This document shows, one piece after another, positions 2,233-43,978 of a DNA stretch of 64,000 nucleotides (its first letter is position 1; each line of letters begins with the position of its first letter). The notes under the pieces were generated by a model that had not been told where the DNA came from, made no database searches, and worked only from the letters and a program-made list of their open reading frames with translations. The stretch spans positions 136,350,448-136,414,447 of the forward strand of contig CM061136.1 of NCBI GenBank assembly GCA_030789695.1, given 5' to 3'. The position numbers were made by a program, and so were the translations under genes. The DNA is from Scilla litardierei. Its lineage: Eukaryota; Streptophyta; Magnoliopsida; Asparagales; Asparagaceae.

Positions 2233-2237
2233 GCATA
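2233..2237. other. Target site duplication of element A, left
   Basis: GCATA, repeated exactly at 28,068-28,072 on the other side of element A. A 5-bp duplication is standard for LTR retrotransposons. It ties the two distant LTRs together as one insertion. Confidence 0.9.
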
Positions 2238-2600
2238 TGATCGTCACCCGGTATGCACGCGCAACCGAGACGAGCGACTCGTAGTCTTACTGCAAGCACA
2301 CGGCAAAGTGGCGAGCGGGTATCGAACTCAGGGAGGTGCAATGACAGTGTCGCGTTCTAATCACCTAGCTATCAAAATGGTCAAATGTAATTTGGGATAA
2401 AATTGTCACAATCGTTCGTATATCGCTGGAAATATCAATGAAATAAAACGCCTAGGGATAGGGAATCCCCACTACAAACCGTATCTCGTCGTTATGATTC
2501 GTAGGTCACATCATTGCTAGACATGAATTTTGGGTGAACTAGTTGCAACTAAATGTGAACCAAGCTCACGCTCTCGCGCTATTGCCGGTCTATAGCGAAC

Positions 2601-2897
2601 CTAGGTTAGGGCCCAATCTCTTGCAAACCCTAACCTAAGCCGCTAGCATTAGGATCGACATCATCGTTCAATCGTATCTCGAGTCCACTCTCGTGCAAAC
2701 TCGAGCTACGACCTAGGTTGAGATAGTTCCTACCCGTCCAATCTCTTGCAAACGGGTATTTGTATAGAAATACGATTAAAACCCCTAGCCTTGGTCCAAT
2801 CTCTTGCAAACCAACTCTAGAAAATTCCAATCGTAAATCTAAATCGAATATCTAGGTCTTCCAATCAATTGGGACCCAATCTCTTGCAAATCCCAAT
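2601..2897 (-). repeat. Array of five stem-loops with a constant loop (A, 3' LTR)
   Basis: Five times within 300 bp, a near-constant core CCAATCTCTTGCAAA is flanked by self-complementary arms that differ each time: 2,601-2,637 (10-bp arm), 2,678-2,705 (CTCGAG), 2,731-2,758 (TACCCG/CGGGTA), 2,791-2,814 (TTGGT/ACCAA), 2,868-2,897 (ATTGGGA/TCCCAAT). The second core is the variant CCACTCTCGTGCAAA. Same order and spacing occur in every LTR of A, B and C. Position downstream of the TATA box places it in the 5' leader of the element RNA. Function unknown; see findings. Confidence 0.85.
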
Positions 2898-3283
2898 CGA
2901 TATGAATCCCTAGCTATCCGTAATTTATCAATCCCAACCTAACCCTAATCAATTCTAACAACAATTTCACCAATTCATCACAATTTAGAAATAGGGTTCA
3001 TAGGGTTCATCCCCATGCCCTAGGGCAATTAAACTACTCACTAATCATTATGCAATTCATAAGAAATTCAATAGAAAATTCAACACAAATCATTGCAACA
3101 GAGAAATATTCAATAAAAATAGAGTTTTTAACAAGAAATAAGACAAACCAATGAGATTCCAATAGCATCCAACAAAAATCCACTTTCTAATCTCTCAAAA
3201 GCCCTCAATCTAATTAACTAAAAAGCTCTCTAAAAAGGCTGCAAAAAGTATCAAAAAGTTCTTCTAACCTAGGGCAAAAACTG

Positions 3284-3293
3284 GGTTTAAATA
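3284..3293 (-). promoter_or_regulatory. LTR TATA box, element A
   Basis: Minus strand GTATTTAAAC, conserved at the matching place in the other LTRs (12,316, 24,648, 27,303, 47,094 and 56,869 areas). It sits about 85 bp downstream, in element orientation, of the palindrome cluster. Transcription would start near 3,255. Confidence 0.6.
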
Positions 3294-3377
3294 CCCCTCA
3301 AAATCGCCCAAAAAATCGTGGCAAAAATGCCCCTGCGCAGCTCAAAAATCGCAGTTTACGCAGCAGGCGGGGCGGCT

Positions 3378-3745
3378 CACTCGACCGAGTGACAAATGTC
3401 ACGCGGCCGAGTGACAAACCCTGTACAATTACAGTAAGTTCGGGATTTTGGGGGTCTGTCTTCGAAAGGTGACTCGGCCGAGTGGATTTACTCACTCGGC
3501 CGAGGGGCAATTCTTGCTCGGCCGAGTCGGAGTCGTCAAAAATCCTATAAATTAAGAGTAAGTCGGCCGTTTTTGAAGTTTCTTTTCTCATGCCACTCGG
3601 GAGAGGAGATTTCCATGCTCGGCCGAGTGGACTATCGTCACTCGGCCGAGTGCACGCCTATTTTCTTCTGTGGATGCGTGTCCGGTCTGGTCGGCCGAGT
3701 GGTCTTCTTGCTCGGCCGAGTGGGTAGTTCACTCGGCCGAGTGAG
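3378..3745 (-). promoter_or_regulatory. Cluster of CACTCGGCCGAGTG palindromes (A, 3' LTR)
   Basis: About eleven exact or near copies of the palindrome CACTCGGCCGAGTG in under 370 bp, for example at 3,378, 3,400, 3,472, 3,492, 3,516, 3,617, 3,639, 3,711 and 3,730. The first two face each other across a spacer that is itself inverted. The cluster lies directly upstream of the TATA box in element orientation, the place of an enhancer or promoter-proximal element. Present in all six LTRs of A, B and C. Confidence 0.8.
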
Positions 3746-4049
3746 ATGCTGCAAAGGCCCAATCTTCGTCTTTTCGCTTCCTCGTCGCTCCTACGACGTT
3801 CTTTCTTCTCCCACTTGTCTTCCATCGCCGAATACCCCTCGAAAGAGCTTTAGGTGACACTCCGGAGTGGGTGCAAATCCTCTTGTTCTCAAAATCATTC
3901 TGAATCGCTCCATATCTCCTGAAATACGACAAAAACAAGAAATCGTGAAAAGCATCGCAATATTGCCGAATAATCGTGAAAAACACGATATGAGCGATCA
4001 AAGTGGCATGCAAACATGCAGAAAAAGGGTGTAAAATACGGAGCGATCA

Positions 4050-4064
4050 AAATCCCCCAAGCTT
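4050..4064 (-). other. Polypurine tract, element A
   Basis: Minus strand AAGCTTGGGGGATTT, directly against the LTR start TGATCG. This is the expected primer for plus-strand DNA synthesis and fixes the element's orientation. Confidence 0.85.
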
Positions 4065-4069
4065 ACCTC

Positions 4070-4096
4070 TTACTCGTCCTCGAGGAAGATGAGTAA
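4070..4096 (-). other. PPT-proximal hairpin, element A
   Basis: A 27-nt imperfect inverted repeat with outer arms TTACTC/GAGTAA around a CTCGAGGAC-type apex, about 6 bp from the polypurine tract. The same fold occurs in B (13,091-13,117), C (47,873-47,899) and F (61,981-62,007). E and G have perfect hairpins of different sequence at the equivalent place. Confidence 0.6.
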
Positions 4097-5994
4097 AAAG
4101 CGAGCCCGACGGGCAAAATGATGGAAAAGAGGGAAAAATAAAAGAAATAAAAAAATAAAAACAAAAATATAAATAGAATAGAAAGCGAAGAGAGGGGGGT
4201 GCTAGATCATTTTTCTCAGGGCGTGGGTTTTGCTTACTCATATAGCATACATCGAATATAAAACACACGTCAAAGACTTTTATTTCGATATCATAGTATA
4301 ATTGATGCATTCGAAATAGAAAACCCTAAAATATCAATATAGCATGAAACATGGAATCATTCTAGGATTAACATCGTCTGAAGCATCTAAAGCGGTATGC
4401 ATAACAATAGATCACACACTTTTCAATTGAATGCTTTCTATAAGGAGTATAAGAGATATCACACGATATGGAATAGTAAGAATAGAAAAGCATGGTTTTC
4501 ATGAAATGAATGCTAAGTGTCGATCTCTGGATTTCGTGAAACTTTAGCAATCTCACCGAGTATAGAAGATTACTTAGCCTAGGTTGTCATGCACCGTCAA
4601 GTGGTCACTCTCTCACACATCGTTGGATCCTCTCCCCCAAGCTTATCCATAAGTGTGATGGCATAAACAAATCAATATGTACATTCCCCATTTCTTTTGA
4701 AGCTCCAAAAAAGTAAAAATAAAACAAAAGAGAGAAGAAATGAGAGAAAGAGTATGAGATGGGATCGTTATGAACTTATTTTTCTATTTTCTTTTCTTTT
4801 TTTTTCAATTTTTCTCTTTCTTTTTTTTCATTAAAAATATATACATAAGCGATCCCAAATCAAAAGAGAGAAGGATATACAGGTATATTTTTTTTTCTTT
4901 TTGATTTTGGGGATTTGGAGCATGGAAATTAATAGCGGGGGAAATGCCGATAATAGACTTGCTAGGGGGGTTCACCAATGAATTTCAAGTAGAGAAATAA
5001 TGCTCGAGATATGTGGAGAAAGAAATCAATGTATCACTCAGTTCACTCTATAGGACGTGCATGACAACTATCAGCAGAGTAATATAATCTACTCAGTTTA
5101 ATCCCAAAAAGAAACTAGTCCAGATATATCACCCTAGCAAACATTCAATCAACCTGAAAGTGAAGCGCACAATTCATGCAATAAGAAGTGACATGAGAGA
5201 GGAAAGCAATACTCCAAATATAAGCAGACAATGCATGAAGCTTGGTGTGTTTTCTATGAAAAGCATATATATGAATCATTAGACATCAGCTAATAATAGA
5301 ATTTCATCCATATTCATACAGGAAAAGAGTGGGTTACTATTTCAAAATGCAAAGCAGGACATAGCATATGATATCTGAAACAAAAGCTATGACGTGACAA
5401 AATAGCATGCATATGTGGATAAGCTAACACCACGTCATCATCATCACAGAAAAATCATCTCCAGCAAAAGATGAAAGAAACAAAGATAAAAAGAAAATAG
5501 AACTATATACAATGCAGCATACTCAAAAAGGAAAAGAAAACGTGATGCATGATAAAAAAACGAAAAAGTGGTGAAAATAAGTGCAAAAGTGGAAAGAAAG
5601 TGTGAAAAATAAAAAATAAAAGGGGCAAAAATGAAAAGGTGTGAGAACTCACTCCCCCAAGCTGAAGTGCACAGTGTCCTCAATGTGCAAAGTGTGGCAC
5701 ACTGAGAGGCGTGAGGTGGGTGGGGAGGGTAAGGATGCATGCATGATAAAAAAAGAAAAAGAAAAAGAAAATAAAATGCGAATGAATGTGATGCATGCAA
5801 AGATCAGGATGATGCAAATATAAGTGTCCACAAAAAGTCTCTCTCCCTCACTCCCAAAAAGGTATAAAAAAGAATATGATCAGGAAGTCATCAAAATAAT
5901 AATACGTGGAGGAGGGGGGCAAAAATCAATCACCAGGCCCAGGAACAAATGGGCATCAAAACGACAAAAAATATCAGAGGCATCAAGAATGTGC
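4097..5994 (-). other. AT-rich 3' non-coding region of element A
   Basis: Nearly 1.9 kb between ORF2 and the polypurine tract with no convincing frame. It holds pyrimidine runs (4,787-4,830) and two further PPT-like strings, AGCTTGGGGGA on the minus strand at 4,633-4,644 and 5,653-5,663. B and C carry the same region with the same two strings. Short frames here have low-complexity translations and are not genes. Confidence 0.7.
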
Positions 5995-7997
5995 CTAAGC
6001 TGGTGGTGACGCTGCACCAGCACCGTCCTGTGGCGGAGGTGGTGGTGGTGGAGGTAGTGGTGGTATCTGCTGGGAGGGTGTGGGTGGTGGAGGCAGGCGC
6101 GCCAGAATCTGAGTCAGGCAAGCCTGAATATCGGGAAGCATGGCGACACGGGACTGTACGAAACTGACCGTGGCAGAGAGAGCCCTGAAGTCTCCTCGAA
6201 GTCCACTAACAGCCCCCTCGAGAGCACAAATGCTCTGAACTAGAGTGTTAGGGGGTGGTGGAGCGGAGAGACGCACAGGTCGAACAGGTGAGGTGTGGGG
6301 CTGTCTCTGGCGGGAGGCGTATAGGATGGGGCCAGCAGGGTAGTGTGGAAGGGGTGCTGTGCTCGGTAAGTGGTGCCCAGCCTCGGTGTGAGGCTGGGAC
6401 GCAGGCTGGGTCAAAGCAGCAGTAGCAACAACAGAGGTGGAAGGCAAAATAGGTGACGAGGCAGCAGGAGAGGTCAGTGACGCAGAAATGGGGACAGAAT
6501 TCACGACACTCTCGGTGAAGACAGCGGCGGTGGAGACCGTAAGGTCGACGACTGGGGAGGCAGTGTAGGGCACAGAAGTGAACTCCCCAGGAGCCGTCGA
6601 CAGCAATCGGGAGAGGGTCTCCACAGCAGCAGAAAAGGAAGACTCGCCGCTCTCTAGAATGGTGGTGGGACGCTTGGGGCTAAAAGAGGTGATAAGCTCG
6701 ACGGACATAGGCTCAGCGGTGGTGGTGGTGGTGGTGGACTTAGCTACGGTGCTCCCGACACTGACAAAAGTATGGACAGAAGTGTCGGGAGGTGCAGACA
6801 GTGCAGGTGCAGGCTGAGGGATCACGGGGTCAACAGGTGGTGCAGGGGGTGCCTGCTCAGCATCCTCAGACTCAAGTACGTAGGCAGCGGGGATAAGTAG
6901 GTCCATCGCTGGAATCCAATCCCCGTGGGCCGGTCCAATGTGTGTCCGAGCGAGGCTCAGATGAACCATGTAGTCAGCACTAAAGGGACCATGCAACCAC
7001 ACCCAATGCCTGCGACCATGGGGACGGAGCATCTTCATCCGGGCCATAACATCTATCGAGAGTGAAGTGGGGCCCGGGGCTCGACGCAAGTCGTCAGGTA
7101 GGTCCACGCCGGTCATAAGGGCTAGAAGTGTGATCAGACCGTCGCAACAAATAGGCGAGCGAGCGTTCACCGAAATGATGATGCGGTCCAAAAACCAACT
7201 AGCGATGTCGATCTCGACGGCGGGGACCAGGTCGTCGCTACCCCTATCCAGAACCCTGGGGCGAGTCATCGTGTTGAGCATGTAGAGCTCTGGCATAGAC
7301 ATCTTCCCAGGCTCGTACCTCGCTAGGAAGGTAGTCACCATGAGGCACTATGCAATGCAGAGGCAGGGGTGCAGGATGGCTGAGGCCTTGGCCCTACTAG
7401 GGTCAAAGCCAAGTGGGGATCCCGTGATCCGTGGCCAGAATGTGGAGGTGTCGAACGACAGTGGTGGGATGTGCGTGGGACCGTAGGCACGGTCAGGGAC
7501 AGGGACAGCGGGCCACTGGAAGAATGCACGAAGCATGTTGAGAGTGATCTCGCACTCTCGATCCATCAAGCGGAATGTGCATCCTCCAGGGGTCTGATCA
7601 ATAGAGCTCAGGACCTCTAGTTCGGACGGATGAAAGTATCCGTCGACACCGCAAGAAAATCACGCCATCCCACGTTGTCGTACAACGTGAGAAGCCCCTC
7701 GAGTACCCCTAGGCGGTCAAGGTTAGCTAAGTGCGCGAACCTAGAGGGTACTATTGAGCGATGGCAGATACACTCAAACCTGACGCGGTGTGCGTCATTT
7801 CGAAACGTGATCCCCATCGGACCGACAGCGGGAGCGGGTGGAGGGACAGGATCGGCTGGGATTGACTGTGTGGGTGGTGGTGGCGGTGGCGGGCTAGGTG
7901 GATGGGAGTCCTGCCTAGCGTGAGAGGGACCGGGGTCATCGGTCCGCCTCCGCTTGGGGGCGGATCCCCGTGTACGTGGCCTAGTACGCGGCGGCAT
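5995..7997 (-). pseudogene. Element A ORF2 (Athila ORF1-like N-terminal domain), broken
   Basis: A frame of about 667 codons located where other Athila-type elements carry their extra 3' ORF. The start at 7,997 (MPPRTRPRTRG) is shared with copy C. In order: a basic, proline-rich N-terminus with a run of eight prolines; a conserved globular block beginning RFAHLANLDRLGVLEG and including NVGWRDFL, which resembles the Athila ORF-1 family; a Ser/Thr/Pro-rich middle; a C-terminal amphipathic segment (ALEGAVSGLRGDFRALSA) that could coil; a polyproline tail. There is no signal peptide or membrane segment, so an envelope role is not supported. Breaks: an early stop at about 7,619, a frame change near 7,570, and a stop near 7,370 where B has Gln. 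The last 448 codons are open. Confidence 0.75.
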
Positions 7998-8522
7998 GTG
8001 TGCCGCGAGACGTGTCCCAACTAAAATAAATGATGCGGCGTGCTAAATGATGGAACAAGTGTACCTGAACATACCGCGAGAGAAATAAGTGATGCGTGCG
8101 AAGAGACGAAGCTAAATGTGTGTCCAAAAGCTCCTCGAAGCTCCCCCAAGCTAGCCTGCAAATGAAACGATCAAATCAGCGAATAATATTCAATACGTAT
8201 GGGGGAGATAGGGGATAATAGATAGAATGAAATTTAATTTGGGTTAGGGGCTCAATGGGCGTACGGATCAAGAGAAACGGGGAGAAAATGAGTTTTTGGG
8301 GGAAAACAGGGCAAATCAACTGTCGGCCGGCGGTGGGGGTGGTCGTCGGTCGTCGGCGAGGTGACGGGAGGTTGTCGCCGGCGATCGGAGGTCGGTTCGG
8401 CCGGTAGTGAGGTCGGATCAGGCGAGGGAGATGGTTGCATCAGGCGAGGGAGAGGAAACGGCGCGGGCTCGGGCGAAATTTGGGGCGATTTGGGCTTTTA
8501 GAAAGTCGCGCCTGCGGCTGAA
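7998..8522 (-). other. ORF2 leader region, element A
   Basis: About 525 bp between the internal TATA box and the ORF2 start. It includes a GC-rich GGCGGTGG-type stretch (8,320-8,470) and another PPT-like string at 8,142-8,152. No reading frame is conserved between copies. If the internal promoter works, this would be the 5' leader of the ORF2 transcript. Confidence 0.5.
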
Positions 8523-8531
8523 CTTATATAG
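8523..8531 (-). promoter_or_regulatory. Internal TATA box upstream of ORF2, element A
   Basis: Minus strand CTATATAAG, 11 bp downstream in element orientation of an internal palindrome cluster. B has TTTATATATAAA at 17,539-17,550 and C a weaker CTACATAAG at 52,269-52,277. The layout copies that of the LTR promoter, suggesting a separate promoter for ORF2 (inference). Confidence 0.55.
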
Positions 8532-8541
8532 AAATTGTTAC

Positions 8542-8880
8542 GACTCGGCCGAGTGACAATGTCACTCGGCCGAGTGCGTAAACGAAATAAATTTTGAAAA
8601 TCTCGTTCCCACTTACGACTCGGCCGAGTAGCTTTGCTTCACTTGGTCGAAGGGAGAAACTCCACTCGGCCGAGTGGCTCTGCCACTCGGCAATTTTTAG
8701 GCTCGGAGGGTATCTGTTTCACTCGGCCGAGTGACAAGTCACTCACCCGAGTGGCGATTAAAACTAAAATTTACAGAAATTGACAGAGAGTTGGTCTGCA
8801 GAAACTTTCCTATTTTGCGCTCCACTCGGTCGAGTGGAGTCTTTGCTCGGCCGAGTGGCATATGCTACTCGGCCGAGTGA
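8542..8880 (-). promoter_or_regulatory. Internal cluster of CACTCGGCCGAGTG palindromes, element A
   Basis: Around ten exact or degenerate copies of the LTR palindrome, at 8,542, 8,562, 8,617, 8,662, 8,719, 8,739, 8,822, 8,844 and 8,866 among others. It lies between the protease and ORF2 and is followed at once by a TATA box. The flanking sequence is otherwise not an LTR copy. B (17,556-17,896) and C (52,287-52,625) have the same block. Confidence 0.75.
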
Positions 8881-9210
8881 CATGCTGTTTTCTGCATCGG
8901 CTCTCCGTTTTTGCTCTGGTCTCTGTTTTTATTCCTCCAGTCTATTTCTTCCTCCTCTTAAGGCCTGAACGCATTCCTGGAGCGCTCTTCCTTGCCTCTA
9001 TCTTCCTCCATATGATTGATCTCCCTTTCTCCTTCTCCTGTCATGAAAAATAGGACCCGTTGTCACGATTTTCATGGACAAAAGACTCTAAAAACTAACG
9101 AAAGGCTAAACCAAAAATGAAAATCAAATAAAAACAACGCTAAAATCGTCGGGTTGCCTCCCAACAAGCGCTCGTTTAAGGTCGTGAGCTCGGCCCCTTT
9201 AGATATTCGT
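8881..9210 (-). other. Spacer between protease and internal cluster, element A
   Basis: Non-coding spacer downstream of protease. It contains a segment conserved in A, B and C: minus strand CGCTTGTTGGGAGGCAACCC at 9,151-9,170 (18,164-18,183 and 52,896-52,915 in the others). I recall very similar strings near the end of the main ORF in other plant Ty3 elements. Its role is unknown to me. Confidence 0.5.
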
Positions 9211-10062
9211 TTAGCTCGTGATATTAGGTGCATATGAGATGCACCCGTCAAACTTGTCGGGAAGGCCGCTCGGATTTGGGTCTTGATGATCATCGGTCTT
9301 CCTCGATGTCTCCTCATCATGGGCAATGTTGGGGGATAAGTCCCCCAAGCTAGAGCTTGTTCCTATCTTCTTCTTGGCCGGTGACACCGATCTTCCGTTC
9401 GGTGGAGCTTTCTTCGGATTCTTGGCCTTTGAGAGCTTGCAAAGCTCTCGTATTCTTGAGACATCAGCGTCACCTTCATCACCATCTGTGGAGCTATCTG
9501 GAGGGTCCTCCAACTTCTCTTCTTCACCCGAAACTTGGCCTTCTTCGAAGCCATCGTCATGGAGAGCACCAATAGAGTGGGGGATTGCTTCTTCAATCAC
9601 TTCATCGAGGAGATCCAAATAATCTAACTCCTCGTGATATGGCATATGTTTCATGGCCCGGGGTATGAGAAGCTCGACTTCTATGTTCCCGAAATTCAAG
9701 GATAGAGTTCCTTCACGCACGTCGACGATAACACCGACGGTTGCGTGGAACGGGCATCCAAGTATGAGCGAAGTGTCGCCCTCTTCATTGATGTCCATTA
9801 TAACAAAATCACAAGGCAAGCATATACCTCCCGGTACTTGGAGTGGAATATTCTCTGCGATCTCTACCGGCCTAGTAATCTGACCGTTTGCAAGTTGAAT
9901 CCTCATGTCGGTCGGCTTTAAGTCGGTGCCCGTGTTCAATCTCTGGAACATACTAAGGGGCATAAGGCTCACACTAGTGCCCAAGTCTACTAGAGCTTTT
10001 TGCAAAGGGACGCCTCCTAGTGTGCAAGGGATGCGGAAACTCCCAGGATCCTTCATTTTCAC
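9211..10062 (-). pseudogene. pro: Element A protease (retropepsin) and C-terminal tail
   Basis: An open stretch of 283 codons encoding an aspartic protease of the retropepsin type. It shows the catalytic motif DLGTSVSLMPLSMF, the DLG form being normal for Athila/Tat proteases, and downstream the second conserved motif as ILGCPFHAT, where B and C have ILGRPFLAT. The upstream part is continuous with gag, so gag and protease were once one frame. After the protease core there is an acidic tail rich in Asp, Glu and Ser. It would cleave the Gag polyprotein inside the particle. The partner RT and integrase that normally follow are absent. Confidence 0.85.
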
Positions 10063-11268
10063 CGGCTCCTTCTCCTTCCGGGTAAACCAAGTTCCTTACT
10101 CCGCAAGCATGATTTTTTCCTTCCTTCTCTTTCCTGAAATCAAGTCCTTCAAGAACTTTGCGTAAGACGGGATCTCAACAATTGCATCTAAGAAAGGAAT
10201 ATTGAGGCTTACTCCCCTCAAGTATTCTAGAAACTTGGCGAGCCTCTTCTCCATCTTGGCTCTAGCTAGCCGTTGTGGAAACGGCACCGGTGGCATGTAG
10301 CGGCGCTCATCAAGTGGCTCCACCACTTTAGGATTTCCTCCTTCAATTGTCTCCTTTCGGCTCTCTTCTTCAATTGCCGTCTCTTTTTCTTCCAAAATTT
10401 CCACCATGGGTTGCTTGCTTTGGGTCATAGCGGGAGTGGTATCCTTCCCACCCCTTGTTGTAACCGCGACCACTGCATTGATGTGTCCGGTGTTGCTCCG
10501 TGGATTGGGCTCGGGTTGAGCCAGCAATTGTTGGGCATTCTTATTAAGCAATGCAAGTTGCTCCGCAAGTTGAGCGACGACGGTACTTAGTGACTCTTGC
10601 CCCGCCGTCAACTTAGCATTTATCTTCCGTTGCTCCACCATAAATTCCTTCACCCTAGCTTCGTGGTCCGATCGTGGTTGAGCTTGAGGTGGGTTGGGAG
10701 CTATCCAACCTTGGTTGTACCCGGGGGGTCTATATGGTCCTGCTTGTTGCCTCAGCGGGTAGTTTTGTTGTGGTGGCCCCCTCGGTTGATATTGAGGTTG
10801 TGGTGGTGGAGGCCGAGCTTGGGGAAGTTTTTGTGACGGCGGGTTCAAAGCACCATCATTGTTTGCATATGAAAAGCCGGTTGGTTTCTAGTAGCCGGGT
10901 TGGCCCAATATCCGGAATTTCCCGCGACATATTGTACTTGCTCCCAGGCTCCTTCTCCATTGTCCCCTCCTACATACATAGCTTGGGATTGGTCTTGCCA
11001 ATCGCTCATATTGCTTGTCGGCGTAGATGTAGAGGGTGCTCCATGGGGCTCGGTGATATATTTCTCCAATCTCTCCACCACCTTGTGGAGAGAGTCAAAC
11101 TTGTTTGAAAGCTCCACCACGGCCTTGGCCTCATAAATGCTAGTGGTCTTCAAAGAGGACGAAGAATGTCCCCGCTCGTCCCCCCATTGTTGGTTATTAG
11201 AGGCCATCTCCTCTAACAAGGCCGTAGCTTCATCCGGAGTCTTTGATAGTATGGCTCCATTGGCGGTT
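10063..11268 (-). pseudogene. gag: Element A gag, middle and C-terminal part (cut by element B)
   Basis: Continues the gag begun at 26,120-25,412 on the far side of element B. It contains SIYEAKAVVELSNKFDSLHK (a likely coiled coil), the GYWANPATRN block typical of Athila gag linkers, a long Pro/Gln-rich stretch, and near the end the conserved RLAKFLEYLRGVSLNIPF segment. No CCHC zinc knuckle is visible, which fits the Athila group. A frame break near 10,846 separates two open parts, and a stop lies at about 10,095 before the protease. At 11,268 the frame is cut by the 3' LTR of element B. Confidence 0.8.
11264..11268. other. Target site duplication of element B, left
   Basis: CGGTT, repeated exactly at 25,412-25,416. 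Joining the sequences at this duplication restores continuity of the element A gag frame, proving that B landed inside the gag of A. Confidence 0.95.
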
Positions 11269-11626
11269 TGATCGTGCCCCGGATACACACCCGGGACGGG
11301 ACTCGCTAGTCTTACCGCAAGCGCACAGTGTAGCGGCGAGCGGGTATCGAACACGAGGAAGGCAAATGACGGTGTCTTCTTCAATTCACCTGGCTATAAT
11401 AACAGTCGAGAAATATTCGCAATAAAGCGGTCACATTCGTTCAATTGTATAAAGAAAATATCAAATTAATAAAACGCCTAGGGATAGGGAACCCCCGCTA
11501 CAAACCGTATCTCGTCATTGTGATTCGTAGGTTTCACAATTGCTAGACTTGAAATTCAGGTGAACTAGTTGCAACTAAATGTAGAACCAAGCTCATGCTC
11601 TCGCGCTATTGCCGGTTTATAGCAAA

Positions 11627-11925
11627 CCTAGGCTAGGGTCCAATCTCTTGCAAACCCTAACCTAGGCAAGCTAGCGTGAAGAACAACATCATCGTTCAAT
11701 CGTATCTCGAGCCCACTCTCATGCAAACTCGAGCTACGACCTAGGTTGGGATAGTTCCTACCCGTCCAATCTCTTGCAAACGGGTATTGGTATAGAATTA
11801 CAATCGAAAACCCTAGTTTCGGTCCAATCTCTTGCAAACCGATTCCAGAGAAACCCAATTGTACCCCCAATTCGAATTTCTAGGGCTTCCTATCGAGTTG
11901 GGATCCAATCTATTGCAAATCCCAA
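11627..11925 (-). repeat. Five-stem-loop array (B, 3' LTR)
   Basis: Same five stem-loops as element A. Notable changes: stem 4 is TCGGT/ACCGA where A has TTGGT/ACCAA, a paired change that keeps the stem. Stem 1 has one mismatch but is two pairs longer at its base. Stem 5 is TTGGGA/TCCCAA. Confidence 0.8.
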
Positions 11926-12408
11926 TCGGTATGAATCCCTAGCTATTCGTATTAAATCAATCCCAAACTAACCCTAATCAATTCTAGCAAGAATTTCACC
12001 AATTCATCACAAATTAGAAATAGGGTTCGTAGGGTTCATCCCTACGCCCTAAGACGATAAAACTACTCACAATTCATAATGCAAATCATTAGAAATTCAA
12101 TAATAAAAACAATAGAATTCATTCTAATAGAAAATATATCAATAAAAATGAGGTTTTTGATAGAAAGAGAGACAAACCAATGAAGATTCAATAGCATCCA
12201 ACAAAATAGCACTTTTATCTCTCTCCAAAGAACCAAATCTAATCTCCTAAAAAGTATTCTAAAAAGGCTGCCAAAAGTTTGAGAAAAAGCTCTCCAAACT
12301 AGGTTAAATACTGGGGTTAAATACCCCCCAAAATCACCCAAAAAACTGTGACAAAATTGCCTCTGCGCAGTTTGAAAATCGCACTTTACGCTACAGGCAG
12401 CGCGGCTC

Positions 12409-12777
12409 ACTTGGCCGAGTGACAAATGTCACTCGGCCGAGTGACAGACCCCGACGGATTCCAGTAACTTCGGACTTTTGGGGGTCGTCTCCTCGGGAGT
12501 CACTCGGCTGAGTGACTTTCTTTACTCGGCCGATGTGATTTCTTCATTCGGCTGAGTCGGAACTCGGGAGCTGACTGACGGATTACAGTAACTTCGGGAT
12601 TTTTGCTTGCCGTCGTTGAGATGCCACTCGGGCGAGTGGTGTCTCTGTGCTCGGCCGAGTGGTCTGACGAAGCTCGGCCGAGTGCACGCTGATATTCAAT
12701 CTGCTGCGTGTCCGATCTGGCCGGCCGAGCGGGCTGTCGATGGTCGGCCGAGTGACTCCTTCACTCGGCCGAGTGGC
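12409..12777 (-). promoter_or_regulatory. Palindrome cluster (B, 3' LTR)
   Basis: About ten near-copies of CACTCGGCCGAGTG directly upstream, in element orientation, of the LTR TATA box at 12,316-12,324. Spacing between palindromes differs from A while the motif itself is kept. Confidence 0.75.
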
Positions 12778-13070
12778 ATGCTAAAAATGCCCAATCTTTG
12801 TATTTTTGCTTCCTCGTCGCTCCTACGACGTTCTTTCTTCTTCCACTCCTCTCCAATCGTAAAATTCCCCTCAAAAGAATCACGGGTGACACTCCGGAGT
12901 GGGTGCATCTCAGAATCACTCCAAATCGCTCCAAATCTCATGAAATTCGACAAAAACAAGAAATCGTGAAAAGCATCGCAATATTGTCGAATAATCGTGA
13001 AAAACGCGATATGCGCGATCTGAATGGCATGCAAACAAGCAGAAAAAAGGTGTAAAATATGGAGTGATCA

Positions 13071-13085
13071 AAATCCCCCAAGCTT
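13071..13085 (-). other. Polypurine tract, element B
   Basis: Minus strand AAGCTTGGGGGATTT against the LTR start. A hairpin equivalent to that of A lies at 13,091-13,117. Confidence 0.8.
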
Positions 13086-15001: not shown

Positions 15002-17020
15002 CTAAGCTGGTGGTGCTGCACCATATCCGTCCTGTGGCGGAGGTGGTGGTGGAGGTGGTGGTCGAGGTGTCTGCTGGGTGGGTGGGTGTAGTGGAGGCAG
15101 TCGCACCAGGATCTGATTCAGGCAAGCCTAAATATCGGGAAGCATGGCGACGCGGGACTCCACGGAACTGACCGTGGCAGAAAGAGCCCTAAAGTCGCCT
15201 CTGAGTCCACTCACCGCCCCCTCAAGAGCACGAAGGCTCTGAAGTAGAGTGTCAGGGGGTGGTGGAGCCGAGGGACGGACAGGTCTAGGCTGTGAAGGAC
15301 GGGGCTGTCTTACACGGGCAGTGTAAATAATCGGGCCAGCAGGTATGTGCGGAAAAGGTGATGTGTTCACTAGTGGATGCCCAGCCTCAGTGTGAGGCTG
15401 GGACGCAGGCTGGGACGAGGAGGCAGCAGCAGCAGTGGTGGAAGACAAAATCGGCGACGAGGCAGCAAGAGAGGTCGGTGACACAGGTGTGGGGACAGAC
15501 GTCACGACACTCTCGGATAGGACAACTGCGGTGGAGACAGAAGGGTCGACCACTGGGGAGGAAGTGTAAGGACCAAAAGGTGACACCCCATCGGACAACA
15601 AGCTGGATAGGGTCTGCACAACAGCAGGGAAGGAAGACTCGCCGCTCTCTAGTATGGTGGGTGGACGCTCGGGAAGAAGTGAGGAAATAGGCTCAACCGA
15701 GATAGGCACAACAGTGGTGGAGGTGGTAGTAAACGTGGTGGAGGTGGTGGAGGACTCAGCAAGGGTACTCCCGACACCGACAGAAGTATGGACAGAGGTG
15801 CCGGGAGCTACAGACAGTGCAGGCTCAGACTGAGGGATCACGGGGTCGACGGGTGCAGGCGGTGCCTGCTCAGCTCCCTCAGCCTCTAGCACGTAGGCGG
15901 CAGGGATCAGGAGATCCATCGCCGGAAGCCAGTCCACGTGTGCCGGTCCTATATGTGTCCGAGCGGGGCTCGGGAGAACCATGTAATCGGTACTAAAGAG
16001 ACCATGCAATCATATCCAGTGTCACTGGCCGTGGGGACAAAGCATCTTCATCCAGGCCATGACGTCTATCGAAAGTGCAGTGGGGCCCGGGGCTCGTCGG
16101 AGGTCGTCAGGTAGGTCCACGCAGGTCATAAGGGCTAGAAGCGTGATCAGACCGCCGTAACAAATAGGGGAGTAAGCGCCCACCGAAATGATGATGCGGT
16201 CTAAAAACTAGCTAGCAATATCAATCTCAACAGTGGGGACCAGGTCGTCGCTACCCCTATCCAGAACTCTGGGGCGAGTCATCGCGTAGAGCATGTAGAG
16301 CTCAGGCGTAGACATCGTCCCAGGCTCGTACCTCGCTAGGAAAGTGGTCACCATGAGGCGCTGTGCTATGCGGAGGCAGGGGTGTAGGATGGCTGAGGCC
16401 TTGGCCCTACTAGGGTCAAAGACAAGATGGGATCCCGTGATCCGTGTCCAAAAGGTGGAAGTGTCGAACGACTGTGGTGGGATGTGCGTGGGCGCGTATG
16501 CACGGTCGGGGACAGGGACAGCGGGCCACTGGAAGAACGCATGAAGCATGTCGAGAGTGACCTCGCACTCTCGATCCATCAATCGGAATGTGCATCCTCC
16601 AAGGGTCCGGTCAATTGAGCTCAGGACCTCTAGTGTCGGACGGATGTAAGTATCCGCCGACACCGACAAAAAATCACGCCATCCCATGTTGTCGTACAAT
16701 GTGAGTAGCCACTCTAGTACCCCTAGGTGGTCAAGGTCTGCTAAGTGTGCGAACCTAGAGGGCACTATCGATCGCTGGGCGATACACTCAAATCAGACGC
16801 GCTATGCGTCGTTTCTGAACGTGATCCCCAGCGGCCCGACGGCGGGAGCCGGTGGAGGGACAGGATCGGCTGGGATCGGCTGTGTGGGTGGTGGTGGCGG
16901 TGGCGGGCTAGGTGGAGGGGAGTCCTCCCTAGCGTGAGAGGGACCGGGGTCATCGGTCCGCCTCCGCTTGGGGGAGGATCCCCGTGTGCGTGGCCTGGTG
17001 CGGGGCAGCATGTGTGCCAC
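15002..17020 (-). pseudogene. Element B ORF2 (Athila ORF1-like N-terminal domain), broken
   Basis: Second ORF of element B, same design as in A: basic and polyproline N-terminus (PRTRPRTRG), conserved block with NMGWRDFLSVSADTYIRP and GGCTFRLMDRECEVTLDML, a Ser/Thr/Pro-rich middle, and an amphipathic C-terminal segment ending in polyproline. The start could be 17,020 or 17,011; the latter matches A and C. Internal stops lie at about 16,802 and 16,795 (before the conserved block), at about 16,207, and in the 16,010-16,030 area, and one before the last 40 codons near 15,127. Open parts are 185 and 293 codons. No membrane segment. Function unknown; nucleic acid binding by the basic end is possible but unproven. 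Confidence 0.75.
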
Positions 17021-19442: not shown

Positions 19443-20987
19443 GGGGGAGTGGTATCCTTCCCACCCCTTGTCGTAACCGCAACAACCGCGTTGATATGGC
19501 CGGTGTTGCCCCGTGGATTTGGCTCGGGTTGAGCCGGTAATTGTTGGTTGTTTCTATTAAGCAACGCAAGTTACTCCCCAATTTGAGCGACGACGGTGGT
19601 GAGAGAATCTTTTCCCGCCTTCAACGTGGCGTTAATCTTTCTCTGCTCCACCATAAACTCTTCCACCTTAGCTTCAAAATCCGAACGTGGTTGAGCTTGC
19701 GTAGGGTTGGGATTTTTCCAACCTTGATTATACCCGGGTGGCCTATAAGGTCCCACTTGTTGCCTAGGTGGGAAGTTTTGTTGCGGTGGCCCCCTTGGTT
19801 GATAATTCGGTTGTGGTGGTGGAGCCCGAGCTTGAGGAGGTTGTTGTGGTGGGGGGGTTCAAGGCACCATCATTATTAGCATAGGAAAAACCCGGATGGT
19901 TTCTAGCGGCCGGGTTGGCCCAATATCCGGAATTCCCTGCAACATACTGAATTTGCTCCAAAGCTCCTTCTCCATGCTCTCCTCCTACATACATTGCTTG
20001 GGATTGGTCTTGCCAATCACTCATATGGTTTGTCGATGCGGATGTAGAAGGAGCTCCATGCGGCTCGGTAATGTATTTCTCCAATCTCTCCACTACCTTG
20101 TGGAGAGAGTCAAATTTGCTAGCAAGCTCCGCCACAGCCTTGGCCTCATAAATACTCGTGGGCTTCAAGGAGGACGAGGAATGTCCTCGCTCGTCGCCCC
20201 ACTGTTGGTTGTTGGAGGCCATCTCCTCTAGCAAGGCCGTAGCCTCATCGGGGGTCTTTGACAAAATGGCTCCGTTGGTGGTAGCATCAATAATCTGTTT
20301 TGTGCCCGGTTGGAGTCCATTGTAGAAACTGTGGACAAGCTCCCAATCCTATATGCTGTGATGGGGGCATTGATGCTGCAAGTCCTTGAAGCGCTCCCAT
20401 GCCTCATAGAGAGTCTCCTGAGGTCCTTGCTTGAAGTACATGAGAGCACTTCTTATCTTCACCGTCTTGGAGGGCGGGTAAAATTTGTCGACGAAAGCAC
20501 TCGCCAATTCATCCCAAGTGGTGAAGATTCCTTCAGCCTGCATCCTCAACCAATATAAGGCTTTGTCCTTGAGTGTGAAGGAGAAGAGGCGCAGTCTGAT
20601 AGCATCTATGGAGACGCCCGGCATTTGGAAGGTGGCACATTTTGATAAAAAGAGCTGGATGTGGTAATGAGGGTTTTCATGGGAATTCCCATGAAAAGGG
20701 TCTTGCTGCATCAGAACTACCAACCCAGTCTTCAACTCAAAATTTTTGTCGGCCGCCAACTCCGGCATAGCTATGGACGAGGTCGTGGAGGAAGTCTTAG
20801 GCCGAAGCCTATCTCTAATGGAAATGATCCTCGCCATTCGCGCCGCCAATTCTTCGGGTGTCTCAGGATGGGTCATAAAATTCCCTTCCGTATCGAGTCT
20901 CCTCTCCGCTCTGATCCTCCTCAATGTATGATCGATCTCCGGATCGTATAGTATTTCCTCGGGGTCCGCTGTGGATCTCGTGTACAT
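19443..20987 (-). pseudogene. gag: Element B gag, N-terminal and middle part
   Basis: Start at 20,987 (MYTRSTADPEEI), 133 bases after the primer site region, shared by all three copies. The first 213 codons are open and contain the retrotransposon gag domain: KNFELKTGLVVLMQQDPFHG, then HYHIQLFLSKCATFQMPG, then a YWLRMQAEGIFTTWDEL helix block and WERFKDLQHQCPHH. The frame ends in a stop at about 20,349 where element A has Glu. It resumes from about 20,264 with the coiled-coil block and the GYWANPAARN linker. Later breaks are a frameshift in a G run near 19,850, a stop near 19,571, and a frameshift near 19,450. Gag would form the virus-like particle. Confidence 0.85.
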
Positions 20988-21121: not shown

Positions 21122-21380
21122 AAAACTTGATCGCGCCCCGGATACACACCCGGGACGGGACTCGCTAGTCTTACCGTAAGCGCACGGTGTAGCGGTGAGC
21201 GGGTATCGAACACGAGGAGGGCAAATGACGGTGTCTTCTTCAATTCACCTGGCTATAAGAACAGTCGAGAAATATTCGCAATAAAGCGGTCACAGTCGTT
21301 CAATTGTATAAAGAAAATATCAAATTAATAAAACGCCTAGAGATAGGGAATCCCCGCTACAAACCGTATCTCGTCATTGT

Positions 21381-21385
21381 GATTC
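21381..21385. other. Target site duplication of solo LTR S, left
   Basis: GATTC, repeated at 23,857-23,861. In the undisturbed LTR of B (around 11,520) GATTC occurs once at this place. Confidence 0.95.
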
Positions 21386-22091
21386 TGTCACGACCCGCTT
21401 CCCTAAAATGGAGGCGAGACGTGAAAAGGTCCGCACGGGAGTGGAGCTGTGAAGCCCCAAACCCGATAAGCGTCAATAATACATAAGCAGGTCCCTGTAA
21501 CCACAACAGAATAACAATAATAACACAAGGAGAGACTGAAATAAAATCTCACATCTCAAATATTGTCCAACAAGAAAATAATAAGTTCAGCGTCCAGAAA
21601 AGCCACCAGGCTAAAAGAAAAGAGTCTAAAGGCCCAGAACAAGGCCAACAAAAGCAACAGCAACAACAAGTATGGGTGCTACGCACCGATAACAAAACAA
21701 CCGTCTAACAAAAGTAAAACACAACGAAGACACTAGGACTGGTCCCCAGTGTCCACGTACTCCCCGTCAAACACAAGGTCGGGTTCGGCGTCAGCAAACA
21801 CCTCGTCCTCAACAAAGTACTCAGGCTCAGGATCTAACATGTGTCACCCAAAAGAGTAAAGGGGCACATGTCAGCAAGTCTAAAAGACTTGGGCAAGGAA
21901 ACTAGAAGTAAGGCAACTAACAACCTAGCAGTTTAGTATGCATGACATGGCAGTTATAACATGAGTGCACAATCAAGACATGGCAAGACAATTCGTACAA
22001 GAGAACAATCATCGGGACAAGACAAGACAAGGCAAGAGTAGCCACGCTACTATCAATCTTAATCAATTCACTATTCACGTTGTTTTGTAGA

Positions 22092-22235
22092 TGTTTACGC
22101 CTTACAGCTGAATGGTTTCACATCCGCTGAGTGGCCGCTTAACAACTACCCCAAACCCAAGAGTTTACGCCTTACCACTGCAGTTGCTGATCGGGCAGAC
22201 TCCCAGTTGATTGGTCGCTTAACTCTTACCCCCAA
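22092..22235. repeat. Two-unit degenerate tandem repeat in solo LTR S
   Basis: Two adjacent units of about 70-75 bp, each opening GTTTACGCCTTAC and ending TCGCTTAAC followed by TACCCC. Seen by eye; no function assigned. Confidence 0.55.
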
Positions 22236-23115
22236 TACCCACACGTAATGGAGCCAGGGTCCCCGCACAATGAACTCAGCTAGTGAGCCTGGGGTTGCCC
22301 CGCACATGAGCTCGCATTCTTAAACATTTGGCGTAGGGGTGCACCTAGTCGGAAACGAGCAATTCGGGCATTGGCTATCAACCAACACATGGCCCGCTTC
22401 TGGAACACGAGCCAGGAACACAAGCATTTGTAGCAAAGTTACGCAATCACAGAAACGCTTAAAGAATGCAATGACATGACAATTAATTTGCGTACCGTTA
22501 ATGGAAAGTAAACATGACATGGAAATTGTGCAACATGCTATATGTGTTGGAACTAGCTTCGTTGTCAAGCTAGTTCTCCAATTTGCGCCTAGGCGAGTAT
22601 CATTTCGTCGCCTAGCCTCTTTTACGCCTACTATGAGAAAATGGCCTAAAACATGACCTAAACCCTAAGTGGCAAGTTTCACTTGCCTAGCACCGGGGAT
22701 GGCGACTACTTCGTCACACGAATGCCAATCTACGGGGAAATCGCTGTTATGGGGGAAACAACATCAAACAACACGAAATTTATTAGGGTTTCACAAAAAT
22801 TATAAATAAGTTATAAAAACAACGGTAGATCGATTTCTTACCGAGAGGAGGCGGAAGAAACACTCCGGGGAACCCTAGGATCAGATCTGGAGAAGATTGG
22901 AGAAGTTTGGGGAAACTAGGGTTTTGGGGGATTTGGAGATTTGATGGATTTGGGTGAGATTTTGGGGAAGATGAGAGGTAGATGGAGTGGATGGATGGTT
23001 TGGATGATGGATTTAGGGCTTGGAATGAAGAAATGAAGCTTGGAGGAAGATGGGGCTCAAGGGGGAAGATTTTAGGGTTTTGGATCGTGTTGGGGAAGAA
23101 GAAAACGTTTGGGTT

Positions 23116-23128
23116 GGGTTTAAATAGG
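23116..23128 (-). promoter_or_regulatory. TATA box of solo LTR S
   Basis: Minus strand CCTATTTAAACCC, located immediately downstream in LTR orientation of the GACCGACTAG cluster, the same arrangement as in A, B, C, E and F. Confidence 0.5.
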
Positions 23129-23169
23129 ATGGGCTGGCGGCTGCCCAGAAATTAGGGTTTCAACACTGG

Positions 23170-23587
23170 TTAGTCGGTCAAAGAGCAACCACTGACCGAC
23201 TAGTTTGGCAACTAGTCGGTCGGTCGACCAACGCAGACCGACTAAGTGCAAACAGTAACTCCTGAACGAAAATAGGATTTTAGAGTTAGTCGGTCCATGA
23301 ACAAATACTGACCGACTAGTTTAGCATCTAGTCGGTCGATGAACGTTCTTAGACCGACTAACGATAAACAGTAGCTGATACAAAAATAAGATGATGAGTT
23401 AGTCGGTTAAAGAAGCATTGATGACCGACTAGTTTGCAACCTAGTCGGTCAACCAACGTTCTTAGACCGACTAACGATAAACAGTAACTCCTGGGAAATT
23501 TAGAAAGCTAACTAGTCGGTCCAAGAAGGATTGCCGACCGACTGGATCGTCATCTAGTCGGTCGGTGCCCCTTCTTATACCGGCTAA
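23170..23587 (-). repeat. Tandem array of GACCGACTAG / CTAGTCGGTC motifs
   Basis: Almost four units of about 114 bp starting near 23,170, 23,285, 23,398 and 23,513. Each unit contains GACCGACTAG followed closely by its reverse complement CTAGTCGGTC. The array lies just upstream of the LTR TATA box. The motif is unrelated to CACTCGGCCGAGTG, but the design is the same. Confidence 0.8.
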
Positions 23588-25411
23588 TGAGCACAAAAAG
23601 TTCCGATACGGAGCGCGGGGCCCCGGGATCGATTCCTAAGACTCCTAGGCTTGATCTAATAGTTAGATACGACCGTTATGAAGTCTGTCACGAGTGACAT
23701 ACTTCGAAATCGACAATCCTAAGGAAGAAATGAGAAAATACGACGAATCGATCGAAAATGAAATCTACGGAGACGAAAACCACACAAGAGGAGAAAATCC
23801 ACCAAAACATATATTATATTATATTAAATCTAGATACATGAAAAGCGGCCGTTACAGATTCGTAGGTTTCACAATTGCTAGACTTGAAATTCAGGTGAAC
23901 TAGTTGCAACTAAATGTAGAACCAAGCTCACGCTCTCGCGCTATTGCCGGTCTATAGCAAGCCTAGGGTAGGGTCCAATCTCTTACAAACCCTAACCTAG
24001 GCAAGCTAGCGTGAAGAACAACATCATCGTTAAATCGTATCTCGAGCCCACTCTCGTGCAAACTCGAGCTACGACCTAGGTTGGGATAGTTCCTACCCGT
24101 CCAATCTCTTGCAAACGGGTATTGGTATAGAATTACAATCAAAAACCCTAGTTTCGGTTCAATCTCTTGCAAACCGATTCCAGAGAAACCCAATTGTAAC
24201 CCAATTCGAATTTCTAGGGCTTCCTATCGAGTTGGGATCCAATCTCTTGCAAATCCCAATCGGTATGAATCCCTAGCTATTCGTATGAAATCAATCCAAA
24301 ACTAACCCTAATCAATTCTAGCAAGAATTTCATCAATTCATCACAAATTAGAAATAGGGTTCGTAGGGTTCATCCCTACGCCCTAAGACGATAAAACTAC
24401 TCACAATTCATATTGCAAATCATAAGAAATTCAATAATAAAAACAATAGAATTCATTGTAATAGAAAATATATCAATAAAAATGAGGTTTTTGATAGAAA
24501 GAGAGACAAACCAATGAAGATTCAATAGCATCCAACAAAATAGCACTTTTATCTCTCTCCAAAGAACCAAATATAATCTCCTAACAAGTATTCTAAAAAG
24601 GCTGCCAAAAGTATGAGAAAAAGCTCTCCAAACTAGGTTAAAAACTGAGGTTAAATACCCCCCCCCCCCCCAAATCGCCCAAAAAACTGTGACAAAATTG
24701 CCCATGTGCAGTTTGAAAATCGCACTTTACGCTACAGGCAGCGCGGCGCACTGGGCCGAGTGACAAATGTCACTCGGCCGAGTGACAGACCCTGACGGAT
24801 TCCAGTAACTTCGGACTTTTGGGGGTCGTCTCCTCGGGAGTCACTCGGCCGAGTGACTTTCTTCACTCGGCCGATGTGATTTCTTCATTCAGCTGAGTCG
24901 GAACTCGGGAGCTGACTGACGGATCACAGTAACTTCGGGATGTTTGCTTGCCGTCGTCGAGATGCCACTCAGGCGAGTGGTGTCTCCGTGCTCGACCGAG
25001 TGGTCTGGGGATGCTCGGCCGAGTGCACGCTGATATTCAATCTGCTGTGTGTCCGATCTGGCCGGCCGAGCGGGCTGTCGATGGTCGGCCGAGTGACTCC
25101 TTCACTCGGCCGAGTGGCATGCTAAAAATGCCCAATCTTTGTATTTTTGCTTCCTCGTCGCTCCTATGACGTTCTTTCTTCTTCCACTCCACTCCAATCG
25201 CAGAATTCCCCTCAAAAGAGTCACGGGTGACACTCCGGAGTGGGTGCATCTCAGAATCACTCCAAATCGCTCCAAATCTCTTGAAATTCGACAAAAACAA
25301 GAAATCGTGAAAAGCATCGCAATATTGTCGAATAATCTTGAAAAACGCGATATGGGCGATCTAAATGGCATGCAAACAAGCAGAAAAAAGGTGTAAAATA
25401 TGGAGTGATCA

Positions 25412-25416: not shown

Positions 25417-26120
25417 GCGTCAATAATTTGCTTCATGCCCGGTTGGAGTCCATTGTAGAAACTGTGGACAAGCTCCCAATCTTCTATACTATGATGGGGG
25501 CATTGATGTTGTAAGTCCTTGAAGCACTCCCATGCTTCATAGAGGGTTTCTTGTGGTCCTTACTTAAAGAACATGAGAGCACTCCGTATCTTCACCGTCT
25601 TGGAAGGAGGGTAAAATTTGTCGACGAAGGCGCTTGCCAACTCATCCCAAGTGGTGAATGTCCCTTCCGCTTGCGTCCTTAACTAATATAAAGCTTTATC
25701 TTTGAGTGTGAAGGGGAAGAGTCGCAGTCGGATTGCATCAACGGAGATGCCTGGCATTTGGAAAGTGGCGCACTTGGACAAGAAAAGTTGGATGTGGTAA
25801 TGCGGATTCTCATGGGCATTCCCATGAAATGGGTCTTGTTGCATCAATACTACCAATCCCGTTTTCAGCTCAAAATTCTTGTCCGTCGCTAGTTCCGGCA
25901 TGGCGATGGATGAAGTGGTGGAAGAAGTCTTAGGCCGAAGCTTATCTCTAATGGATATGATCCTCGCCATTCGTGCAGATAGCTCCTCCGGTGTCTCCAC
26001 ACGGTTCATACAACCGTCCTCCGTAGCGTGCCTTCTCTCGGCTCTGATCCTCCTCACGGTACGCTCGATCTCTGGATCAAATAATATTTCCTCGGGGTTC
26101 GCCGTAGATCTCGTGTACAT
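25412..26120 (-). pseudogene. gag: Element A gag, N-terminal part
   Basis: Starts at 26,120 (MYTRSTANPEEI), 110 bases after the primer site. 145 codons are open, with NFELKTGLVVLMQQDPFHG and HYHIQLFLSKCATFQMPG, the start of the retrotransposon gag domain. Then come a TAG where B has Trp (about 25,682) and a TAA at 25,560-25,562 where B has Gln; copy C has a stop at that same Gln codon. The frame then runs into the duplication CGGTT and continues on the other side of element B at 11,268. Confidence 0.85.
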
Positions 26121-26230: not shown

Positions 26231-26250
26231 GATCCCCGGCAACGGCGCCA
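26231..26250 (-). other. Primer binding site, element A
   Basis: Minus strand TGGCGCCGTTGCCGGGGATC, complementary to plant tRNA-Asp, 6 bp (AGTTTT) from the LTR end. Intact. Confidence 0.85.
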
Positions 26251-33193: not shown

Positions 33194-33199
33194 CTCCGC

Positions 33200-43945: not shown

Positions 43946-43958
43946 TTTATTTATATTA
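43946..43958 (-). promoter_or_regulatory. TATA box, element E LTR
   Basis: Minus strand TAATATAAATAAA, about 20 bp downstream in element orientation of the palindrome cluster. In the 5' LTR (60,084-60,095) it has decayed. Confidence 0.5.
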
Positions 43959-43978
43959 CAGTCAGAATTTTGGGAGCA

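Follow-up and report, generated by a model that had tools for sequence, protein, structure and literature searches.

The window, a 64,000-nt stretch of the 3.68-Gb genome of Scilla litardierei, contains three long terminal repeat (LTR) elements of one kind, A, B, and C, with B nested in A. Their sense strand is minus, because the frames for gag, protease, and the Athila ORF, the primer-binding site, and the order of the LTRs all agree. The features on which the analysis draws are given below (A3 and A5 denote the 3' and 5' LTRs of A, with the same usage for B and C); a core is one copy of the constant 15-mer, and the five hairpins are those of A3.

2236-4050, minus strand: 3' LTR of A, ends accurate to a few bases, 97.2% identical to the 5' LTR at 26257-28067
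26233-26250, minus strand: primer-binding site TGGCGCCGTTGCCGGGGA of A, adjoining the 5' LTR of A
About 11270-13071 and 21127-25411, minus strand: LTRs of B, the second split by ~2.5 kb
About 46080-47855 and 55857-57631, minus strand: LTRs of C
3286-3293, minus strand: TATA-like box TATTTAAA, present in all six LTRs by alignment
2593-2645, minus strand: hairpin 1, last in sense order, core 2613-2627, with 98.5% of cells paired across the six LTRs
2670-2713, minus strand: hairpin 2, core 2685-2699, in the C-G form (TTTGCACGAGAGTGG)
2731-2758, minus strand: hairpin 3, core 2738-2752
2765-2841, minus strand: hairpin 4, core 2796-2810, with a long outer stem
2845-2920, minus strand: hairpin 5, first in sense order, core 2876-2890, with a long outer stem
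26632-26909, minus strand: five cores in the 5' LTR of A
11640-11919, minus strand: five cores in the 3' LTR of B
23975-24253, minus strand: five cores in the 5' LTR of B, an LTR interrupted at about 21386-23856
46444-46721, minus strand: five cores in the 3' LTR of C
56220-56497, minus strand: five cores in the 5' LTR of C

Matches to gag (PF03732), an aspartic protease, and the Athila ORF (PF03078) all fall on minus-strand frames. The Athila ORF was detected at 16211-16792 in B (E=2e-11) and at 51001-51897 in C (E=3.3e-4, 0.1 bit under the curated score). The primer site TGGCGCCGTTGCCGGGGA, which we take to be of the tRNA-Asp type, adjoins the high-coordinate (5') LTRs of A and B and has two changes in C. 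By eye, each element is bordered by a 5-bp target duplication (GCATA around A, CGGTT around B, GGATA around C); no duplications were found in the fetched ends of two further elements of the same genome. With an Athila ORF (PF03078), and a primer site of presumed tRNA-Asp type combined with a 5-bp duplication, A, B, and C are, judged by sequence, Athila-type Ty3/gypsy elements.

Further repeats and matches were recorded in the window. The insertion of ~2.5 kb in the 5' LTR of B (21386-23856) includes a 113-bp tandem repeat within 23169-23587, and two more repeat pairs of 85-86% identity link 1-1129 with 32038-33197 and 43156-44247 with 59300-60383. Two Rfam snoR71 matches over threshold, both on the + strand, lie antisense to the gag region of B (20353-20459, 50.7 bits) and to that of A (25486-25589, 50.8 bits).

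The original prediction described five inverted repeats closing on a nearly constant 15-nt loop and kept in all six LTRs. Both points were confirmed: the 15-mer lies at 2613, 2685, 2738, 2796, and 2876 in A3, and five copies are present in each LTR, 30 in total. The extent had been given as ~300 bp; the hairpins are longer and cover about 2593-2920. Outside the arrays, the 15-mer was found in the window at up to three mismatches only at 25273, 33112, and 39875, each time as a solitary copy. In A3, B3, and C3, the arms beside every core contain a run of 4 to 14 pairs, and some copies in A5, B5, and C5 have a shorter run due to single mismatches. When the single bases of the pooled flanks were shuffled in the three LTRs A3, B3, and C3, none of 20,000 trials per LTR gave four or five cores with a run of at least 4 pairs, compared to the observed 5/5. 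A covariance model built from the 30 units recovered those 30 at 40 bits or more and nothing else in the window above 12.7 bits. Rfam 15 gave no match in the LTRs, with only sub-threshold, chance-level matches in A3. No complement of the main core form reaching 9 bases was present elsewhere in the window (six eight-mers against 7.8 expected), and a search for core pairs in the viral-contig and genome-contig collections returned 0 matches.

In sense orientation, the constant sequence is UUUGCAAGAGAUUGG, followed by A or G. The 15-nt segment is constant, as had been claimed, but it is not a plain loop, since it contains a 3-bp stem and a GAGA tetraloop. In the tip, U1 pairs with the purine at position 16 and U2 with G15; a two-base UG bulge (U3, G4) and three pairs then lead to the GAGA tetraloop. 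Among the 30 window cores, the U.G pair 2/15 and the C5-G14 pair are each present in 29, the A6-U13 pair is present in all, and the closing GNRA tetraloop is GAGA in 26. Positions 7 and 12 are paired in 30/30 (A-U in 22, C-G in 6, U-G in 2). The second form of the loop does occur in hairpin 2, as first reported, but it is not confined to it, being found also in hairpin 1 of C. All other core deviations among the 30 affect one LTR of a pair only and therefore arose after insertion. Hairpin 2 is among those for which single-sequence folds favour a slightly different tip. Identity with the sarcin-ricin loop, for which a GAGA loop and its closing pair served as the features compared, was rejected; the common ground is only the GAGA loop and one closing pair.

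The five stems are unlike one another and comprise 11-31 pairs including the tips in the six-LTR consensus structure. In a test of whether the hairpins descend from one another, flanks of different hairpins exceeded the shuffled 95% point for likeness in 5/60 comparisons, none of them in A3, with hairpins 1 and 4 the most alike. Corresponding stems also differ between elements: in hairpin 3, CCCG/CGGG in A and B (with one mismatch in A5) stands where C has TTCG/TGAA, and in hairpin 4, A3 and C have TTGG/CCAA and B has TCGG/CCGA. Five measures were used to compare units and arrays with shuffles, and two of them were not exceeded. In the 30 units (23 distinct), 96.5% of cells pair versus 74.5% when shuffled, and both-side changes affect 46 cells versus 12.8. 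No excess is seen in the units for pairs changed on both sides (6 versus 5.3 in shuffles; 229/500) or for pair types (15 versus 15.8; 390/500), and in the six arrays both-side-change pairs and further pair types likewise fall within the shuffles (57 and 488/500).

Fold z-scores range from -5.8 to -10.5 for the six sense arrays and from -4.9 to -7.3 for the antisense arrays, and in B the antisense value equals or exceeds the sense value. With folding this good in antisense too, fold scores by themselves leave the strand undecided. A strand test based on G.U versus A.C mismatches was likewise neutral in these arrays, with G.U at 26/36 sites and a share of 66% expected from base composition alone (p=0.29). 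When the predicted leader was folded for five LTRs, mean probabilities of the consensus pairs were 0.71-0.98 in 22/25 hairpins; the exceptions are hairpin 3 of A5 (0.49) and hairpins 3 and 1 of C3 (0.21 and 0.08).

The array lies about 370-700 nt downstream of the TATTTAAA box. The RNA probably starts ~30 nt downstream of that box, near 3260, which would place the array in the leader ahead of the primer site. The earlier claim that the array lies downstream of a TATA box stands, and its presence in the 5' leader RNA is predicted from TATTTAAA. C5 has a second TATA-like box, TATAAA, at LTR position 1431, downstream of the last core, and this may be taken as a sequence hint against a place in the leader. 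The leader would be about 1 kb long, and from the assumed start to the end of the LTR there are 13 AUGs in A5 and 16 in C5; depletion of AUGs within the array is weak (fractions 0.04-0.11). Upstream of the TATA-like box, in U3 (e.g. 3472-3741), the palindrome CTCGGCCGAG occurs in 2 to 7 exact copies per LTR. This set is much like the CGG-CCG boxes of Sireviruses, yet it lies in Ty3/gypsy elements, and it is separate from the array.

Exact cores are abundant in the source genome (82,835 + 83,849 = 166,684; a reversed control pattern gave 1). We fetched 33 arrays, all located in the first 2.6 Mb of contig C1 and each selected because one or more exact cores were present. Allowing up to 3 mismatches, 33/33 have five cores; a sixth weak match in four of them (3 mismatches, 28 nt after core 1) was excluded from the counts. 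The core spacing is 80/57-58/53-54/71-73 in 30/33 arrays, with one gap altered in the other three. In the 165 fetched cores, positions 7-12 are A-U in 123, C-G in 38, U-G in 3, and unpaired in 1, and the loop is GAGA in 157. At ~3 exact cores per array, the genomic count points to LTRs numbering on the order of 50,000.

Between families A, B, and C, the 120-column windows of the array (columns 1081-1500) are 80-90% identical, compared to 42% to 85% in columns 301-1020 and 90-93% in the first 120 columns; the array with its immediate surroundings and the first ~120 bp are the best-conserved parts of the LTR. Wherever both LTRs of an element have sequence, they are 88-100% alike, and the mutation rate is therefore not visibly lower in the array. 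At sites free of gaps and of disagreement between an element's two LTRs, differences between families in the array affect 5/72 core sites (position 16 counted), 24/158 stem sites, and 16/63 unpaired sites.

The 33 fetched and 6 window arrays were placed on a tree of 39 (FastTree, midpoint root, parsimony states), in which internal branches mostly represent evolution of active lineages and terminal branches mostly decay after insertion. The 75 core sites have 6 internal versus 45 terminal changes, and all other sites 234 versus 193 (Fisher 1.5e-9). The six internal core changes are three double changes at 7/12, all of which keep the pair: A-U to C-G in hairpin 1 on two branches and C-G to A-U in hairpin 2 on one, with directions that hang on the position of the root. 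Counting stem changes that start from a standard pair, 82/111 on internal branches keep a standard pair, versus 56/135 on terminal branches (p=3.9e-7). The window LTRs alone gave a result in the same direction that was weaker than the tree test, with pairing kept in 17/22 cases between elements versus 7/17 within (p=0.045). In a simulated tree null with independent sites (111/112 pairs used; columns with >30% gaps dropped), 0/200 runs reached the observed 94.5% of paired cells (null maximum 89.7), and the 20 pairs observed with both sides changed exceed the null mean of 8.8 and maximum of 16. In the 23/39 arrays that are <95% alike, 17/112 pairs have both-side changes with each type in at least 2 arrays, and 144/2,549 cells are unpaired.

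The stems, first described as covarying, were also screened for covariation. An R-scape-like G-test with APC on the 39 arrays gave no pair at E<=0.05 when all pairs were screened, but 2/31 pairs when the screen was restricted to structural pairs, the best being 7-12 of hairpin 1. In the all-pairs screen, the top 10 of 9,045 pairs held one structural pair (0.03 expected) and the top 100 held three (0.3 expected). In our opinion, the lack of all-pairs significance is due to too few independent lineages. Judged from these substitution patterns, natural selection keeps both the tip and the base-pairing. This evidence concerns structure and is silent on which factor reads the array.

We also compared the interiors of 12 elements (A, for the part at 4051-11267, B, C, and nine LTR pairs of contig C1) by tblastn and by Pfam searches of selected frames. 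The array is present in the LTRs of 12/12. Six elements (A, B, C, L045, L046, L050) have gag, protease, and the Athila ORF and no RT-RNase H-integrase match. In L047 and L049, RT, RNase H, and integrase lie just after the LTR end and are accompanied by an Athila ORF (PF03078, E=4.6e-8 in L047); this assignment rests on Pfam for L047 and on 89-95% similarity to L047 for L049. Neither gave a match to gag or to the protease domain by tblastn. Residues 162-292 of the protease-bearing piece, which lie behind the protease domain, match the sequence after the integrase of L047 and L049 (61-62%), as if the gag-protease and RT-integrase classes had each lost a different part of one gag-pol. The remaining four elements, L042, L043, L044, and L048, gave no match to gag, protease, RT, integrase, or the Athila ORF, and gag, protease, RT, RNase H, and integrase occur together in 0/12 of the elements examined.

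The Pfam frame scan of these gag/pol-less elements covered L042-L044, whose tested open frames (up to 541 aa) matched no Pfam family. Distant likeness to the N-terminus of the RT-bearing frame was seen in frames of L042, L043, and L048. The 541-aa open frame, at 2306-3928 (-) of L044, is very acidic (102 D/E, 30 K/R) and has no Pfam match; it is distantly similar to frames of L042, L043, and L048 and, in L049, to the sequence where the RT-bearing region starts. There is a small chance that the elements without a recognisable gag encode a very diverged Gag. All four belong to a single clade of 17 arrays, in which gene content was examined for these four elements (all but nine of the arrays) and no gag- or RT-bearing element is known. 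In this clade, the core has 2 internal changes (one double change) versus 22 terminal changes, compared to 73 versus 98 for the rest (p=7e-4). Among the gag-bearing elements, L045 has an open gag-protease frame of 939 aa at 103-2919. No CCHC zinc knuckle was seen in the gag pieces of the window or in this 939-aa frame, and 0 relatives of the gag piece were confirmed among 2 viral-contig and 7 genome-contig pattern matches.

That the array is a repeated recognition site within a structured element, as originally suggested, is well supported by the compensatory changes, the purifying selection on the core, and the position after TATTTAAA. Our proposal is that this very large Athila-type family carries, in its R/U5 leader, a structured RNA element of five copies that would act in cis. 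Each hairpin of the array would present the same tip, with the stem merely holding it up, and a trans-acting factor would most likely read the tip. On this proposal, the array would be transcribed and bound by a protein, and we infer that this protein is the family's Gag. The array would then mark the RNAs of all three element classes for co-packaging into shared particles. We give roughly even credence to the array being a multi-copy cis signal in the genomic RNA, most likely one for packaging by the family's Gag.

Two features expected of a packaging signal are seen here: a conserved structure at a (predicted) leader position and retention in elements without a recognisable gag (2 RT-integrase and 4 gag/pol-less elements of 12). 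Since RNAs that do not encode the machinery keep the signal, it is best explained as a tag read in trans, and gag-less elements would be packaged in trans. By its sequence, a Gag with no zinc knuckle seen has its usual RNA contact either missing or unrecognised, which counts against reading by Gag; a knuckle-less Gag also makes a specific hairpin ligand more interesting. An extension of the packaging proposal, which we put forward only tentatively, is a split (multipartite) retrotransposon in which separate elements supply Gag-protease, RT-integrase, or neither, and the tips would serve as a shared address label by which a knuckle-less Gag loads common particles.

We rank second the possibility that a host RNA-binding protein reads the tips, for export, stability, or silencing avoidance, and is exploited by all RNA classes. 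Host-protein sites such as iron-responsive elements typically combine a constant tip with variable stems, and both the absence of a visible zinc knuckle in Gag and the array's presence in gag-less elements, for which a host protein would work equally well, are consistent with this alternative. It is nevertheless unlikely, given that the LTR matches no Rfam family and that no link leads from the tip to any named host protein. A role in translation, in which the hairpins would let ribosomes bypass or enter the long, AUG-rich leader as in plant pararetroviruses, is distinctly improbable. Ribosome shunting uses one long stem, unlike the five equal tips found here, and selection keeps the array in a clade where the four elements examined lack a recognisable gag or pol, although they do contain other open frames, of up to 541 aa (L044). 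That the array persists without recognisable gag, protease, RT, or integrase makes a role in Gag translation less plausible and favours a cis signal recognised in trans. What recommends translation control is the ~1-kb leader with its many AUGs, together with the precedent of ribosome shunting in plant pararetroviruses (PMC5902531, PMC2241666).

Dimer initiation through kissing of the palindromic core UUGCAA appears highly unlikely. The motif is self-complementary and occurs in most tips, and kissing loops have been proposed in Ty1 (PMC5454406) and shown in retroviruses (PMC7599994). However, half of the palindrome lies within the 3-bp stem, and the 7-12 pair is kept in 30/30 window and 164/165 fetched cores, compared to 22/30 and 124/165 that have the palindrome's A at position 7. 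Position 7 switches between A and C together with T and G at position 12. The palindrome is broken in 8/30 cores, and the array lacks the conserved, self-complementary, unpaired loop of a kissing-loop initiation site. There is even less to suggest that the hairpins are Dicer substrates or other silencing-related structures, acting as a small-RNA source or decoy. Selection here is mostly on the tip and not on the stem sequence, and Dicer is not known to require an identical tip. On the other side, work on Sireviruses has reportedly dealt with palindromes and siRNAs. An account of siRNA854 raises a fold-back of the Athila6 transcript as one of three models for how this siRNA starts (PMC3276544). 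Least credible is an element acting at the DNA level through cruciforms or transcription-factor sites. Inverted repeats with a constant 15-mer could be read in this way, and Sirevirus LTR palindromes have been interpreted as possibly cis-regulatory (PMC2829016), but the TATA-like box shared by the LTRs lies upstream of the array, the near-invariant U.G pair 2/15 (29/30) would be a mismatch in DNA, and A-T to C-G double changes at 7/12 are unexpected for a linear DNA site.

The array, which we favour as a packaging signal read by Gag, combines a compact motif, repeated five times, with strong evolutionary support and ~167,000 exact core copies in one genome. Direct, testable predictions follow from the tip, from its A-U, C-G, or U-G variants at 7/12, and from the spacing. 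Little has been established about how plant LTR retrotransposon RNA is selected for packaging, and an array common to elements that complement one another in gene content suggests a route by which a plant genome can be flooded by non-autonomous families. The original prediction knew of no description of this array; in agreement, a non-exhaustive search of the open-licence PMC literature gave, among the matches listed and far from exhaustively, no title or abstract start describing it.

Constant loops on variable stems serve as recognition sites in the repeated loops of coronavirus SL5 and in iron-responsive elements, which are unrelated to the array in sequence and host and offer an analogy only. 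Non-autonomous elements of the LARD/Dasheng type, which have no Gag of their own, keep cis signals and are packaged in trans, and the array in gag-less elements is comparable to these and to the BARE1/BARE2 partnership. BARE2, which produces no Gag itself, enters particles and has retained signals for dimerisation and packaging (PMC3735527). Unlike in the BARE and LARD cases, gag-protease and RT-integrase here reside in different classes with one leader, and 0/12 elements are complete. The palindrome boxes of Sireviruses, which are Ty1/copia elements, lie upstream of the TATA box and mostly have a CGG-CCG core (Bousios et al., 2010, PMC2829016). The array resembles Sirevirus LTRs in having many inverted repeats that are kept as flanks diverge (PMC2829016). 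It differs from the boxes in lying downstream of its TATA-like box and in having a tip as its constant part on stems that vary; the constant part has no CGG-CCG core, and we rejected the array as a case of Sirevirus repeated palindromes. In the TIPIRT domain of Ty1, leader hairpins are proposed to start dimerisation and packaging; that domain relies on complementary loops and a pseudoknot, whereas the present array repeats one tip (PMC5454406). In retroviruses, SL-B, SL-C, and SL-D of MoMuLV and the leader hairpins of HIV-1 are packaging signals in a row, several of which are needed together in MoMuLV and some of which have tetraloop tips (PMC7599994). The array would share with these signals a row of hairpins in the 5' leader of an LTR-element RNA. 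It differs from them in belonging to a plant Ty3/gypsy element whose Gag has no visible zinc knuckle and in presenting one near-identical 15-nt tip on five hairpins with unrelated stems.
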